The translations under genes were made by a program, and so were the position numbers. Shown one piece after another: positions 54,069-58,956 of a stretch of DNA of 64,000 bases. The notes beneath the pieces were generated by a model that did not search any database, had not been told where the DNA came from, and saw only the letters and a list, made by a program, of their open reading frames with translations. This stretch comes from Pseudomonas sp. DTU12.3 (lineage in GTDB: Bacteria > Pseudomonadota > Gammaproteobacteria > Pseudomonadales > Pseudomonadaceae). Each line of letters starts with the position of its first letter. Within the stretch, counting starts at the first letter, position 1. The stretch is taken from contig NZ_CP027218.1 in NCBI RefSeq assembly GCF_004124275.1, positions 2,297,501 through 2,361,500 of the forward strand, in the 5' to 3' direction.

Positions 54069-54488
54069 TCACCGCTCATCAATGTCCGGAAAGAAGATCC
54101 TGCCAACGACCCAAGGCTCAACGATCTCGCAATGTACGGTGCGCAAAAAAGATCCCCACTCGCTTCGGTTATGAGCATCCGGGCCGGTGATTGTCAGTAG
54201 CAGGTACTCATCCCGAAAGGCGTCATAGGCGTAGATCAGCCAAAAGTCATTGTCAGCATCATCAACCAATGCTGTGCGGTAATACTGACGATTGATTTTT
54301 TCCCATCGAGCCTGCAGTGCCTGACTACTGGCCAGGTGAATATGATGCATATCGTTCAGATCGAGTCGTTCGTCTCGCCCAAAAATTGCGGGTAATTCAT
54401 CGCAGATTTTGTAGTTGTAGAAGTGTGCCGCGAAGTTTTTCCAGTTATTGATTTGTTCAAAAAGTGTGGAAATTTTGATGGCTGGCAT
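54069..54488 (-). CDS. YafO-like toxin (probable ribosome-dependent mRNA interferase)
   Basis: A 139-residue protein whose middle part matches YafO as I recall it: a Y-K...LP-IFGRD segment at 26-39 and HIHLA at 48-52, then an aromatic-rich second half (NDFWLIYAYDAF, EYLLLTITGPDAHNR). YafO cleaves mRNA on translating ribosomes. It lies 6 bp after a 48-residue gene that is probably its antitoxin. That partner does not look like the usual YafN (Phd fold). Family assignment rests on motif pattern and length (E. coli YafO has 132). Confidence 0.7.
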   Translation of the reverse strand: MPAIKISTLFEQINNWKNFAAHFYNYKICDELPAIFGRDERLDLNDMHHIHLASSQALQARWEKINRQYYRTALVDDADNDFWLIYAYDAFRDEYLLLTITGPDAHNRSEWGSFLRTVHCEIVEPWVVGRIFFPDIDER

Positions 54489-54494
54489 CCAGGC

Positions 54495-54641
54495 CTACTT
54501 TGTAAAAGGTAGCCTGCCAGTGATCACAAATTTATCGAACACTTTCTGCCCATCACGCGCGGCTTGCCGAACATCAAGGAATGTCAGTTCATCACGGACA
54601 TCTTTTTTGTCGGGTTTGTCGGTTTTTCGGGTGGTGGCCAT
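54495..54641 (-). CDS. Small antitoxin-like protein, partner of the YafO-like toxin
   Basis: A 48-residue protein: a charged N-terminal part (RKTDKPDKKD) followed by LTFLDVRQAARDGQKVFDKF. The ATG at 54641 is preceded by GGAGG at good spacing; longer starts lack a ribosome site. The order small gene-toxin with a 6-bp gap suits an antitoxin. A second, diverged copy lies at 56187-56321 without a toxin. I recognise no known antitoxin family. Confidence 0.55.
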   Translation of the reverse strand: MATTRKTDKPDKKDVRDELTFLDVRQAARDGQKVFDKFVITGRLPFTK

Positions 54642-54915
54642 CGGAGCCTCCGAAGGATGTGTATTCATGCTGACCAGCTTATGTGAATTAATTTTGAGCG
54701 GCAAACAGTAGAACCCTGCTCAGAGATGGGCAAGTCGGCGGATTCTGATCGAGTTGTAGGACATGGAACGCAGATGTGTAGGCACTGAAATATCGTCATT
54801 TGATGGATGCGATGGCGCGGGATGCATTTTCAGGTTGAGCGATTTGGTCTAATCGTTTCAGAAAACGGGTTGAACATTTTCGGCATTTCGCGTTGTTAAA
54901 CATGATTGCTGATAG

Positions 54916-55041
54916 ATGTTTAAATTACACAAACCGTTACGCCACAAGCCCTACAATGCCTTGCGCCGTTACCTACGCGTACGCCAGAATCCGCCGGCAT
55001 ACACGACCATGGCTCGGGCTATATCGTTTCCCTGTCACTGA
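54916..55041 (+). CDS. Possible 41-residue leader ORF
   Basis: A basic ORF (MFKLHKPLRHKPYNALRRYL onwards) ending in the RNA target hairpin. It is kept in copy 2, where it stays open to 84 residues because the stop is lost. The nearly identical DNA between copies also fits conservation of an RNA, and there is no clear ribosome site, so coding is uncertain. Confidence 0.3.
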   Translation: MFKLHKPLRHKPYNALRRYLRVRQNPPAYTTMARAISFPCH

Positions 55042-55078
55042 AAATCAGTGATCGGGTTTGGTAGCCCGTCTGTAATAG
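55015..55078 (+). promoter_or_regulatory. Upstream target region a1-b1 of the C4-type RNA, copy 1
   Basis: Outer stem CGGGCTA/TAGCCCG (55015-55021/55062-55068) and inner hairpin TCACTG/CAGTGA (55035-55040/55046-55051). Site a1 (TTGGTAG, 55058-55064) is complementary to a' of the RNA. Site b1 (CTGTAATAG, 55070-55078) pairs with b' over 9 bp with one G-U. Confidence 0.75.
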
Positions 55079-55127
55079 TTGTATGGCGACACCTTCTGCA
55101 GCCTCTTTTTTGCGGCTTGCTTTATAT

Positions 55128-55207
55128 GGTGGTCATGCGGGGGGCTCTTTCGAGAGCGCCGGGTTTCCTATTGCAGCCGGTCTACCAACCCGCGTATGGC
55201 CGCCACC
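55128..55207 (+). ncRNA. C4-type antisense RNA, copy 1
   Basis: An 80-nt element. The base stem is GGTGG/CCACC (55128-55132/55203-55207), then a CCG bulge on the 3' side, then seven more pairs (55133-55139 with 55193-55199). Inside are a UUCG-capped hairpin GCTCT/AGAGC (55144-55157), b' (TCCTATTGCAG, 55166-55176) and a' (CTACCAA, 55182-55188). Size and the a'/b' layout match phage P1 C4 RNA (about 77 nt), which is cut from the 5' part of the mRNA it represses. Here b' pairs with the ribosome-binding site of gene A1. Confidence 0.78.
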
Positions 55208-55253
55208 CTCGTTTGGTAGCGAGAAGTGACGGCTCCTGAAACTGCGATAGGAG
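55208..55253 (+). promoter_or_regulatory. Downstream target region a2-b2 at the gene A1 start, copy 1
   Basis: Site a2 (TTGGTAG, 55213-55219) lies in the loop of a CTCG/CGAG hairpin. Site b2 (CTGCGATAGGA, 55242-55252) pairs with b' over 11 bp with one G-U and covers the AGGAG Shine-Dalgarno (55249-55253) of gene A1. Binding would block translation. Confidence 0.75.
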
Positions 55254-55261
55254 CTTCACTC

Positions 55262-55627
55262 ATGTTCAAAGCCACGCCAAATCCCCCGGATACCGATCCG
55301 ATCCCGTACGACCCAACCCTCGAACCTCAAAAGTTAAGAGAAGCGACCGACCGCGCCATCAACTTCTATCTCAACCCTGGTTCACTCAAGCTTTCAATCC
55401 CTTCCCGCAAGACCAGCAAGATTTTCCTCGTCGGCCCCACCGTGGACGAAGAAACACTGCTCGTAGAAGCCTGCGAATCGTTAGCCGCTGCCAGCGACAT
55501 GGCCCGCGATATCGGCGACGTCATCGACAACACACAACGCCGGACCATGTTGATGCTGCATCAGGTGATCATGCTGAGTGAGCTGATGGTCAATCGAGTC
55601 CTGGATAGCCGCCGCTTGCCGCACTAG
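55262..55627 (+). CDS. DUF6124-type small protein A1
   Basis: A 121-residue cytoplasmic protein of a family I recall only from Pseudomonas as DUF6124. The core has KLREATDRAINFYLNP, then VDEETLLVEACESLAAA and a helical QVIMLSELMVNRVLD. Function unknown. Paralogous to B1. Start at MFKATPNPPDTD, 8 bp after AGGAG, which is the b2 target of the C4-type RNA. A REP pair separates it from B1. Confidence 0.75.
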   Translation: MFKATPNPPDTDPIPYDPTLEPQKLREATDRAINFYLNPGSLKLSIPSRKTSKIFLVGPTVDEETLLVEACESLAAASDMARDIGDVIDNTQRRTMLMLHQVIMLSELMVNRVLDSRRLPH

Positions 55628-55647
55628 CAAACTCGCCGCGGTCCCCT

Positions 55648-55735
55648 GTAGGAGCTGCCGCAGGCTGCGATCTTTTGATCTGTTTTTTTCAATCAAAGAC
55701 AAGATCAAAAGATCGCAGCCTGCGGCAGCTCCTAC
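55648..55735. repeat. Paired REP palindrome between genes A1 and B1
   Basis: GTAGGAGCTGCCGCAGGCTG arm and its inverse around a 20-bp loop. The matching pair in copy 2 is at 58471-58558. Confidence 0.88.
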
Positions 55736-55776
55736 AGGGTGTCATTCTTTCGCAGTGTCTTGAGGAGTTTCAGTTG

Positions 55777-56133
55777 ATGTCCGAAACCAACAAACCGTTG
55801 GTCACAGACCCGGTATCGCCCTACGAATCATTCAATTCCAGAAAACTCCACGAAGCCGCCGAACGCGCCCTTGATCATTACCTCGCGCCCGCGCAGATCA
55901 TGGCCACGCCTTACAGTCCAAGCAGCATGTTTAGGGTCAACCCACAAACCGATACTGAATCGTTGCTGGCAAATGCTTGCGAATCTCTGGCCTCGGCGAC
56001 GGTCATGCTCGGTGATTTCGCCGGGGCGCTGGAGGGGCCTAACCGCAATACTTTGCTAGGGATTGCGCAAGTGGTGATGTTGGGGGAGTTGGCGGTGAAT
56101 CAGGCGTTGGATAATGTCGTGCCTAAGGAGTAG
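55777..56133 (+). CDS. DUF6124-type small protein B1
   Basis: A 118-residue paralog of A1: KLHEAAERALDHYLAP, then DTESLLANACESLASATVML, and a helical end with QVVMLGELAVNQALD. I chose the ATG after GAGGAG; the frame upstream runs through the REP pair. Nearly identical to B2 (58600-58956). No C4-type element precedes it, so any RNA control would act through the A transcript. Confidence 0.75.
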   Translation: MSETNKPLVTDPVSPYESFNSRKLHEAAERALDHYLAPAQIMATPYSPSSMFRVNPQTDTESLLANACESLASATVMLGDFAGALEGPNRNTLLGIAQVVMLGELAVNQALDNVVPKE

Positions 56134-56188: not shown

Positions 56189-56321
56189 ACATTGGATCTG
56201 CGATTACAAACTTATCGAATACTTTCTGATCATCACGCCCGGCTTGCCGAACATCAAGAAATGTCAGATCAGGAGGGGGGTTCTGTTTTTCGGCATTCTC
56301 GGTGTTTTTGGTGAGAGTCAT
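56187..56321 (-). CDS. Second antitoxin-like small protein, without toxin
   Basis: A 44-residue protein sharing LTFLDVRQAxRDxQKVFDKF with the 48-residue antitoxin-like protein at 54495-54641. The N-terminus (MTLTKNTENAEKQ) differs. The start follows AAGGCTGCG. No YafO-like gene follows it; the next sequence is the REP-like arm and gene B1. It may be a solitary antitoxin or a decaying copy. Confidence 0.5.
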   Translation of the reverse strand: MTLTKNTENAEKQNPPPDLTFLDVRQAGRDDQKVFDKFVIADPM

Positions 56322-56504: not shown

Positions 56505-56759
56505 ATGTTTAAATTACACAAACCGTTACGCCACAAGCCCTACAACGCCTTGCGCCGTTACCTACGCGTACGCCAGAATCCGCCGGCATACACGACCATG
56601 GCTCGGGCTATATCGTTTCCCTGCCACTGCCCATCAGTGGTCGGGTTTAGTAGCCCGCATGGTTTTAGTAGGTGCATGAGTCCCATTAAGTCAGGCGTAT
56701 TTGTCTGCACTCGATGGTGGCTGTGCTCAGGGCGCTTTCGAGCGCGCCGGTCTTGCTAA
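56505..56759 (+). CDS. Possible leader ORF, copy 2
   Basis: Begins with the same 41 residues as the ORF at 54916 but reads through to 84 residues, across the target hairpin into the C4-type RNA. The extension has no homologue in copy 1, which argues that only the first part, or only the RNA, matters. Confidence 0.22.
   Translation: MFKLHKPLRHKPYNALRRYLRVRQNPPAYTTMARAISFPCHCPSVVGFSSPHGFSRCMSPIKSGVFVCTRWWLCSGRFRARRSC
56604..56671 (+). promoter_or_regulatory. Upstream target region of the C4-type RNA, copy 2
   Basis: Outer stem CGGGCTA/TAGCCCG (56604-56610/56651-56657) and inner hairpin CCACTG/CAGTGG (56624-56629/56635-56640). Compared with copy 1, a U-A pair is replaced by C-G at the base of the inner stem. 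Site a1 is TTAGTAG (56647-56653); a second TTAGTAG is at 56665-56671. A good b1 match is not evident. Confidence 0.7.
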
Positions 56760-56795
56760 TTCCTCCGGTCTACTAACCTGCGCACAGCCGCCACC
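56716..56795 (+). ncRNA. C4-type antisense RNA, copy 2
   Basis: Exactly 80 nt, as in copy 1. The base stem is GGTGG/CCACC (56716-56720/56791-56795) with the same CCG bulge. Six further Watson-Crick pairs (56721-56726 with 56782-56787) differ from copy 1 by paired changes. The UUCG hairpin is GCGCT/AGCGC (56732-56745). b' is CTAATTCCT (56756-56764) and a' is CTACTAA (56770-56776). Both differ from copy 1, and both match this copy's own targets. Confidence 0.78.
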
Positions 56796-56796
56796 C

Positions 56797-56839
56797 TTCT
56801 TTTAGTAGAGAACGGTCGCGGCCCTTGTTCAGGAATTAG
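56797..56839 (+). promoter_or_regulatory. Downstream target region a2-b2 at the gene A2 start, copy 2
   Basis: Site a2 (TTAGTAGA, 56802-56809) lies in a TTCT/AGAA hairpin and pairs with a' over 8 bp. Site b2 (AGGAATTAG, 56831-56839) pairs with b' over 9 Watson-Crick pairs and includes the AGGA ribosome site of gene A2. Confidence 0.75.
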
Positions 56840-56963
56840 ATATTTATGTTCAAAGCCACGCCAAATCCCCCGGATACCGATCCGATCCCGTACGACCCAT
56901 GTAGTGGTCTAATGAAACCGGACACCCATTTAGGCGAGAATGCTCGCCAGATCGAGGTGTCAG

Positions 56964-58126
<1,163 letters not shown>

Positions 58127-58470
58127 CCACTACACCAACCCTCGAACCTCAAAAGTTAAGAGAAGCGACCGACCGCGCCATCAACTTCTACCTCAACCCC
58201 GGCTCACTGAAGCTTTCAATCCCTTCCCGCAAGACCAGCAAGATCTTCCTCGTCGACCCCGCCGTGGACGAAGAAACACTGCTCGTAGAAGCCTGCGAAT
58301 CGTTAGCCGCTGCCAGCGACATGGCCCGCGATATCGGCGACGTCATCGACAACACACAACGCCGGACCATGCTGATGCTGCATCAGGTGATCATGCTGAG
58401 TGAGCTGATGGTCAACCGAGTCCTGGATAGCCGCCGCTTGCCGCACTAGCAAACCCGCCGCGGTCCCCTT

Positions 58471-58558
58471 GTAGGAGCTGCCGCAGGCTGCGATCTTTTG
58501 ATCTGTTTTTTACAATCAAAGGCAAGATCAAAAGATCGCAGCCTGCGGCAGCTCCTAC
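58471..58558. repeat. Paired REP palindrome between genes A2 and B2
   Basis: Same pair as at 55648-55735, with one extra T before it. Confidence 0.88.
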
Positions 58559-58599
58559 AGGGTGTCATTCTTTCGCAGTGCCTCGAGGAGTTTCAGTTG

Positions 58600-58956
58600 A
58601 TGTCCGAAACCAACAAACCGTTGGTCACAGACCCGGTATCGCCCTACGAATCATTCAATTCCAGAAAACTCCACGAAGCCGCTGAACGCGCCCTTGATCA
58701 TTACCTCGCGCCCGCGCAGATCATGGCCACGCCTTACAGTCCAAGCAGCATGTTTAGGGTCAACCCACAAACCGATACTGAATCGTTGCTGGCAAATGCT
58801 TGCGAATCTCTGGCCTCGGCGACGGTCATGCTCGGTGATTTCGCCGGGGCGCTGGAAGGCCCCAGCCGCAATACTTTGCTGGGGATTGCGCAAGTGGTGA
58901 TGTTGGGCGAGTTGGCGGTGAATCAGGCGTTGGATAACGTTATGCCCAAGGAATAG
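58600..58956 (+). CDS. DUF6124-type small protein B2
   Basis: 118 residues, differing from B1 at only two positions near the end (S for N in the EGPxRNT segment, M for V in the final VxPKE). Intact, with GAGGAG before its ATG. With gene A2 split by the IS upstream, its expression may now depend on readthrough from the IS. Confidence 0.75.
   Translation: MSETNKPLVTDPVSPYESFNSRKLHEAAERALDHYLAPAQIMATPYSPSSMFRVNPQTDTESLLANACESLASATVMLGDFAGALEGPSRNTLLGIAQVVMLGELAVNQALDNVMPKE

Follow-up and report, generated by a model that had tools for sequence, protein, structure and literature searches.

Why should an antisense RNA of a kind known from phage immunity stand shortly upstream of a chromosomal gene that belongs to a family of unknown function? 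The question is raised by the window analyzed here, a 64 kb stretch of a Pseudomonas chromosome (G000:C1:2297501-2361500), which contains two tandem C4 cassettes, each with a c4-a1b1 element (RF03163), a C4 RNA (RF01695) and two DUF6124 genes (Table 1). Our answer, to which we give high confidence, is that the locus is a chromosomal C4 cassette of the P1 type, amplified to mostly self-specific copies that probably silence the translation of DUF6124 and DUF3077 genes, the repression itself being inferred.

Table 1. Features of the two C4 cassettes and of the neighboring toxin gene, with their positions in the 64 kb window
Feature	Position	Strand	Evidence or remark
YafO-family toxin gene	54069-54488	-	PF13957, 38.3 bits; upstream of cassette 1
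Putative promoter	54999-55027	+	inferred; ATACAC 54999-55004, 17 nt, TATCGT 55022-55027
c4-a1b1 element, cassette 1	55021-55072	+	RF03163, 51.3 bits, E 4.8e-10 (window search)
a1, TTGGTAG, hairpin loop of the a1b1 model	55058-55064	+	exact complement of a'
b1, CTGTAATAG	55070-55078	+	9 bp with b', one G-U
C4 antisense RNA, cassette 1	55122-55210	+	RF01695, 73.3 bits, E 2.1e-12 (window search)
b' segment, loop of the third stem	55166-55176	+	11 bp with b2, one G-U
a' segment, CTACCAA	55182-55188	+	pairs with a1 and a2
a2, TTGGTAG	55213-55219	+	exact complement of a'
b2, overlapping the ribosome site AGGAG	55242-55252	+	11 bp with b', AGGA covered; ends 9 nt before the start codon
Gene A1, DUF6124 protein of 121 aa, presumed C4 target	55262-55627	+	PF19619, E 3.1e-17
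Gene A2, DUF6124 protein of 118 aa, second gene of cassette 1	55777-56133	+	PF19619, E 1.4e-22
c4-a1b1 element, cassette 2	56610-56661	+	RF03163, 49.1 bits; a1 56647-56653
C4 RNA, cassette 2	56710-56798	+	RF01695, 74.4 bits; b' 56756-56764, a' 56770-56776
a2 of cassette 2, TTAGTAG	56802-56808	+	perfectly complementary to its own a', CTACTAA
b2, cassette 2, AGGAATTAG, covering the ribosome site	56831-56839	+	perfectly complementary to its own b', CTAATTCCT
Gene A1', cassette 2	56846-58449	+	interrupted by an IS after 54 nt; resumes at 58138
IS inside A1'	56900-58137		two ORFs for transposase (56940-57272; 57317-58126), one carrying an rve domain
Gene A2', cassette 2, DUF6124	58600-58956	+	PF19619, E 1.1e-22

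The C4-type identity of the RNA, proposed in a sequence-only reading of this DNA, is borne out by covariance models: both C4 RNAs of the window (73.3 and 74.4 bits) and both a1b1 elements (51.3 and 49.1 bits) score above the Rfam gathering values of 45 bits for RF01695 and 46.7 bits for RF03163. The DUF6124 genes reach 62.7 and 79.7 bits with PF19619, against a gathering score of 27, and the observation of a C4 antisense RNA before a DUF6124 gene is confirmed. The fold of the RNA, the flanking segments and their geometry are shown by the sequence. Re-read in the sequence, a', b', a1, a2, b1 and b2 lie exactly where that reading had placed them, and the pairings it gave (11 bp with one G-U between b' and b2, 9 bp between b' and b1, and exact matches of a' to a1 and a2) are reproduced. 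It had also described an 80-nt RNA bounded by a stem, which stands (55128-55207), with a CCG bulge, which does not: these letters belong to the third stem, the loop of which carries b'. The extent given for the locus, 55015-55262, holds as well, with the loose detail that 55262 is already the ATG start of A1. The gap between the C4 RNA and A1 is 51 nt; on the plus strand of the entire window, TTGGTAG occurs five times, two of them flanking this C4, and CTACCAA once.

The order of the elements is that of phage P1 (record AF234172, in which a1, b1, C4, a2 and b2 are annotated), and the spacing can be compared step by step: 5 nt from C4 to a2 in cassette 1 vs 3 nt in P1, 22 nt from a2 to b2 in both, and 9 vs 10 nt from b2 to the start codon, whereas the gap between a1 and C4 differs, at 63 vs 81 nt. 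The P1 C4 adopts the same fold, starting with GGTGG and ending with GCCACC as the cassette 1 RNA does, and a model built solely from the 26 C4 RNAs of the source genome matches it at 51.9 bits.

Cassette 2 (56610-58956) lies 3' of cassette 1, and, by visual inspection, the ends of the insertion sequence in its first gene read TGTAGTGGTC/GACCACTACA and CCA appears to be duplicated. Between A1 and A2, at 55646-55738, there is a long inverted repeat (TGTAGGAGCTGCCGCAGGCTGCGATC...), which we take to be of the kind of the Pseudomonas REP elements. Beside the YafO-family gene, a 69-aa minus-strand ORF that matches nothing in Pfam (region 54069-54704) probably encodes the partner of the toxin, and a remnant of this ORF is found between the cassettes, at 56202-56270. 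The sequence-only reading had envisaged a tie of the RNA to the DUF6124 family, which is general in the genus, and to a neighboring toxin, which is not: within flanks of at most 1.5 kb of 80 named DUF6124 loci, a YafO gene (tblastn) is found, apart from the window, in only two, L196 and L200, where relatives of both the YafO gene and the 69-aa ORF adjoin the DUF6124 genes. Even when antitoxin-like ORFs are included, only L196, L198, L199 and L200 among the loci collected qualify beyond the window, and a general toxin link was rejected.

How would such a cassette work? In the scheme that we favor, a single transcript, probably starting just 5' of the a1 hairpin, would carry a1/b1, C4, a2/b2 and the DUF6124 gene or genes; C4, 80 nt long, would probably be excised from it by RNase P, as happens in P1; pairing of a' with a2 and of b' with b2 would cover the DUF6124 ribosome site and leave the gene silent; and a1/b1, with the same target letters upstream, would probably tune C4 as a decoy or an alternative partner. 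Two of the outcomes that the sequence-only reading had named as refuting, the lack of a C4 model hit and the lack of covariation at other loci, did not occur. A chromosomal C4 switch acting on a DUF6124-type protein, as originally proposed, is supported, with repression and cleavage by RNase P remaining inferences, as are transcription and the role of a1/b1, in the absence of expression or processing data for the genus. According to the available part of one report, P1 C4 is cut by RNase P and subsequently binds its target mRNAs, and C4-like RNAs of A. baumannii are expressed, with read coverage that suggests processing (PMC5320573). Upstream of a1, the TA...T of the second putative promoter hexamer is invariant in all 26 leaders of the source genome (T30, A31 and T35 of the first row of the alignment), which suggests a promoter there; a consensus scan of the window listed no sigma-70-like promoter, 54999-55027 included. 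A hairpin masking the ribosome site was also considered and is only weakly supported, with a stem of at least 5 bp in 52 of 138 loci for own sequences vs 23% for crossed ones (loci without a first ORF were excluded from this set, and two more by hand).

The position of b2 bears on whether C4 acts on ribosome access at all. Phage P4 CI RNA, which like C4 is an antisense RNA derived from the same transcript as its target segments, located on both sides of it, differs in acting on transcription termination of phage genes, and its a1 lies in an untranslated leader, as a1 does here. Conceivably, then, C4 could control elongation by premature termination, all the more as a terminator-like site, 55096-55115, is found 5' of C4. 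However, such sites amount to 2 vs 1.9 expected, and the stretch from -13 to -6, where the ribosome site lies, is overlapped by b2 in 117 of the 139 loci that have a first ORF and, with G-U pairs counted, a b' run of 6 or more. Control of elongation seems to us quite unlikely.

Whether the RNA and its targets change together was a check proposed in the sequence-only reading. We collected 149 C4 loci, 143 after dropping six with an identical C4. Two genomes, the source genome and G049, were covered over all listed C4 matches, and the others through high-scoring C4s; these others, 29+39 loci, are the best matches listed and are therefore biased toward high-scoring C4s. In the C4 stems, 17 of the 26 pairs have changed on both sides and 96.7% of the cells are paired, a value reached in none of 500 shuffles, with slid controls at 45.6% at most (the structure was taken from the same alignment). 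Between a' and a2, a Watson-Crick run of at least 6 is present in 139 of 143 loci vs 9.5% of crossed combinations, and between a' and a1 in 140 (crossed, 12.4%). For b' and b2, the run is present in 123 loci (crossed, 13.2%), with 20 of 143 lacking it and an AUC of 0.91 for b' vs 0.95 for a'; b1 covaries less strictly (97 of 143 own, 12.7% crossed). The expected concerted change of a', a1 and a2, and of b' and b2, is in this way observed across 143 distinct loci.

Within a single genome, the letters of a' and b' vary among loci yet fit their own leader. Runs of 6 or more in both segments are found in 22 of the 26 own pairs of the source genome, as against 3 among 650 crossed pairs; in G049, the figures are 42 of 55 and 18 of 2970. 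The mean energy of the combined a' and b' duplexes is -22.8 kcal/mol for own pairs vs -13.8 kcal/mol for crossed pairs (26 source-genome loci), and none of 10000 permutations was as good in either genome. When a' and b' were folded against every leader, own and other leaders separated with an AUC of 0.97 (26 loci) and 0.95 (55 loci, G049). Nevertheless, the own leader ranks first for only 19 of 26 RNAs in the source genome and 34 of 55 in G049, and 9 and 45 crossed pairs, respectively, attain the median own energy, so that some cross-talk is possible: self-specificity is strong, not complete. A reversed a' control retained a small own-pair advantage (-5.4 vs -4.7 in the source genome, -5.3 vs -5.0 in G049). 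The leader windows had been narrowed after a first, wider try that gave the same permutation result and poorer ranks (the own leader came first for 5 of 26 RNAs with a' and for 8 of 26 with b'); by energy, a' places its own a1 first in only 4 of 26 cases. It would seem that the cassette multiplied in the genus, with up to 54 matches per genome in our sample, that the target letters diverged, and that, after divergence, each C4 came to recognize mostly its own gene only.

Covariation alone does not establish an antisense RNA that acts in trans. In a folding attenuator, a' and b' would pair with a2 and b2 within the nascent transcript, alternating with a1/b1; three complementary segments on one transcript could produce mutually exclusive folds, joint change is indeed seen for a1, a' and a2 and, more loosely, for b1 and b2, a hairpin contains a1 and, with weak support, a2 (4 bp or more in 71 of 140 loci vs 29% crossed), and pairing in cis would leave identical covariation, such that sequence cannot separate the two modes. 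What such a switch leaves unaccounted for is the conservation of the whole C4 fold with compensatory changes, along with terminal letters and geometry like those of P1 C4, which, in the accessible part of the account, is cut by RNase P and binds mRNA (PMC5320573). We consider an action purely in cis unlikely and retain the trans-acting antisense RNA as the preferred reading.

The association with DUF6124 and DUF3077 is likewise an observation, and, for DUF6124, it extends over the genus. In the source genome, there are 26 C4, 27 DUF6124 and 26 a1b1 matches (E up to 0.001). The 26 C4s precede DUF6124 in 22 cases (one across an IS), DUF3077 in one (at 586899, where the DUF3077 ORF is coupled via a 24-aa ORF) and small proteins without a Pfam match in three; for 21 of them, the DUF6124 domain follows within 400 nt on the same strand, and in cassette 2 it follows at 1445 nt, across the IS. 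Conversely, 25 of the 27 DUF6124 matches lie behind a C4: 21 at 174-228 nt, second genes at 713 and 717 nt, and two past the IS; those at 2613668 and 1386981 have no preceding C4, the latter with an a1b1 match nearby.

Among 59 genomes of the genus, we found 1012 C4 matches, 0-54 per genome, with C4 present in 54 genomes, DUF6124 in 47 and DUF3077 in 45 (stricter filters, E up to 0.001; some matches fall below gathering, and in G049, 52 of 55 C4s are above it). The copy number of C4 follows that of DUF6124 and DUF3077 combined (rho 0.93), and all five genomes without a C4 match also have no match to either family. Some genomes, such as G009 with 38 C4, 2 DUF6124 and 8 DUF3077, are rich in C4 and poor in these families, which indicates that C4 serves other genes too. 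Two G049 matches near or below the cut-off (C1:187623-187709 and 2688820-2688905), with neither a good a2 nor a first ORF in range, are possibly decayed copies or chance matches. In a draw of 232 genomes across the class, C4 was detected in 16, with no more than 6 copies outside the source genome, and DUF6124 in one, the source genome. Relatives of A2 are encoded at 340 places in named genomes, of which the best 80 are all in Pseudomonas, and 75 of these 80 have a C4 (at least 66.7 bits) upstream, at up to 150 nt in 30, at 450-760 nt in 44, which would fit a second gene, and at 1370 nt in one (L238). Among the five without C4, L180 and L208 have little upstream sequence, and L194, L203 and L225 have 1500 nt in view.

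Which proteins, then, stand behind the C4 RNAs? Of 149 first ORFs, the 113 of at least 60 aa were scanned: 78 match DUF6124, 8 DUF3077 and 7 Bro-N, and seven match phage anti-repressor families; at least one first ORF (L028) was read in the wrong frame, and DUF6124 is therefore undercounted. Where the first ORF is shorter than 60 aa (33 loci), the second overlaps it by ATGA in 24, the same overlap as that of icd and ant1 in P1; of 35 second ORFs, 18, chosen by eye, were scanned. An hhalign comparison shows DUF6124 to be related to DUF3077 (probability 97.5, E 6.7e-12). A further group, A7, of small C4-linked proteins was delineated by a shared LFIDT-like motif and includes the proteins behind three source-genome C4s; none of its 14 members matches Pfam, and it has no detectable relation to DUF6124 or DUF3077 (E 0.13 and 0.18). 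At five loci on Pseudomonas chromosomes (L123, L038, L041, L043 and L093), Bro-N antirepressor-type ORFs lie behind C4, an arrangement nearest in kind to P1 c4-ant. The amino-terminal motif M-x-K-x-x-P-[ND]-P-P is common to DUF6124 and some other downstream proteins (first-ORF alignment A1), as if the leader and the first codons were shuffled as a cassette; the L151 ORF, which resembles the Bro-N antirepressor type, has the DUF6124-like start MIKVTPNPP. Outside the genus, 18 C4 loci were viewed and the downstream proteins of 10 scanned, with AntA, pRha, Bro-N and SymE matched once each above the cut-off and weak or no matches for the other six. At one of these loci (L119:1501-1832), a SymE-type toxin gene (PF08845) stands behind a C4 whose a2 and b2 match.

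What the DUF6124 proteins do is less tractable. A1 and A2 match no toxin or defence family and no antirepressor family, and in the latter respect the locus falls short of a P1 immI-type operon. No solved relative of DUF6124 emerged from the PDB sequence set up to E 1, and A2 as modeled by AlphaFold2 (mean pLDDT 81.9, pTM 0.52) is for the most part a helical hairpin, from which no function is drawn, given that a Foldseek search against the PDB returned nothing better than E 1.7. By analogy with P1 Icd/Ant, these proteins are probably helical effectors of small size, silent by default, although this is a guess.

The breakage of some loci could be taken to mean that the cassettes are decayed prophage remnants without a present function: A1' is disrupted by an IS, the first ORF of locus 1950877 in the source genome ends after 56 aa with the DUF6124 domain beyond, and at 3 of the 149 loci, the allowed range contains no first ORF. 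Mere relics would not be expected, however, to maintain the covariation of a1, a' and a2 and of b' and b2 after divergence, which points to selection, or to encode a protein family matched by so many of the scanned first ORFs (78 of 113). Moreover, a DUF6124 query recovered none of 72,556 plasmid records and only one of 50,697 phage records. We regard decay without function as very improbable and, instead, the cassettes as probably working chromosomal C4 switches.

C4 is known from many bacteria, as far as the available portion of PMC2864571 goes. Compared with the c4-icd-ant arrangement of P1 and P7, the C4s of Pseudomonas are chromosomal, numerous and mostly self-specific, and their targets are DUF6124, DUF3077 and other small proteins rather than icd-ant, with only a few of the Bro-N type. 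The Group 1 C4-like sRNAs of A. baumannii likewise occur in many chromosomal copies per genome with a varying a', but, in the accessible part of that study, the targets are left open and there is neither a paired downstream gene family nor a comparison of self with crossed pairs (PMC5320573). In the open-access literature, where subscription journals are largely missing, we found no paper on DUF6124, one on DUF3077, concerned, in the portion available, with furfural tolerance of P. putida, and, in titles and the starts of abstracts, none that links C4 to either family.

Taken together, these findings suggest that bacteria have built a large, private collection of gene locks out of a single immunity switch of phages. 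They open a way into two families whose function is unknown, DUF6124, present at tens of copies in many sampled genomes of the genus, and DUF3077, the genes of which look silenced by default. More speculatively, and with considerable doubt, C4 in this genus might be a general lock-and-key silencing system, in which tens of small-protein genes per genome each have their own RNA and the key letters drift apart as incompatibility or immunity groups do, such that a cell would tolerate copies whose key it holds, whereas a gene with a foreign or newly diverged key would be expressed: a chromosomal repertoire derived from phage heteroimmunity. If this is true, the genes under lock would include DUF6124, its relative DUF3077, other families and antirepressor-like genes. 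Whatever the fate of this conjecture, the 26 and 55 pairs in two genomes constitute a large natural set of paralogous antisense RNAs and targets within single cells, and such pairs are a test bed for the divergence of antisense specificity and for the domestication of phage immunity RNAs as host regulators.
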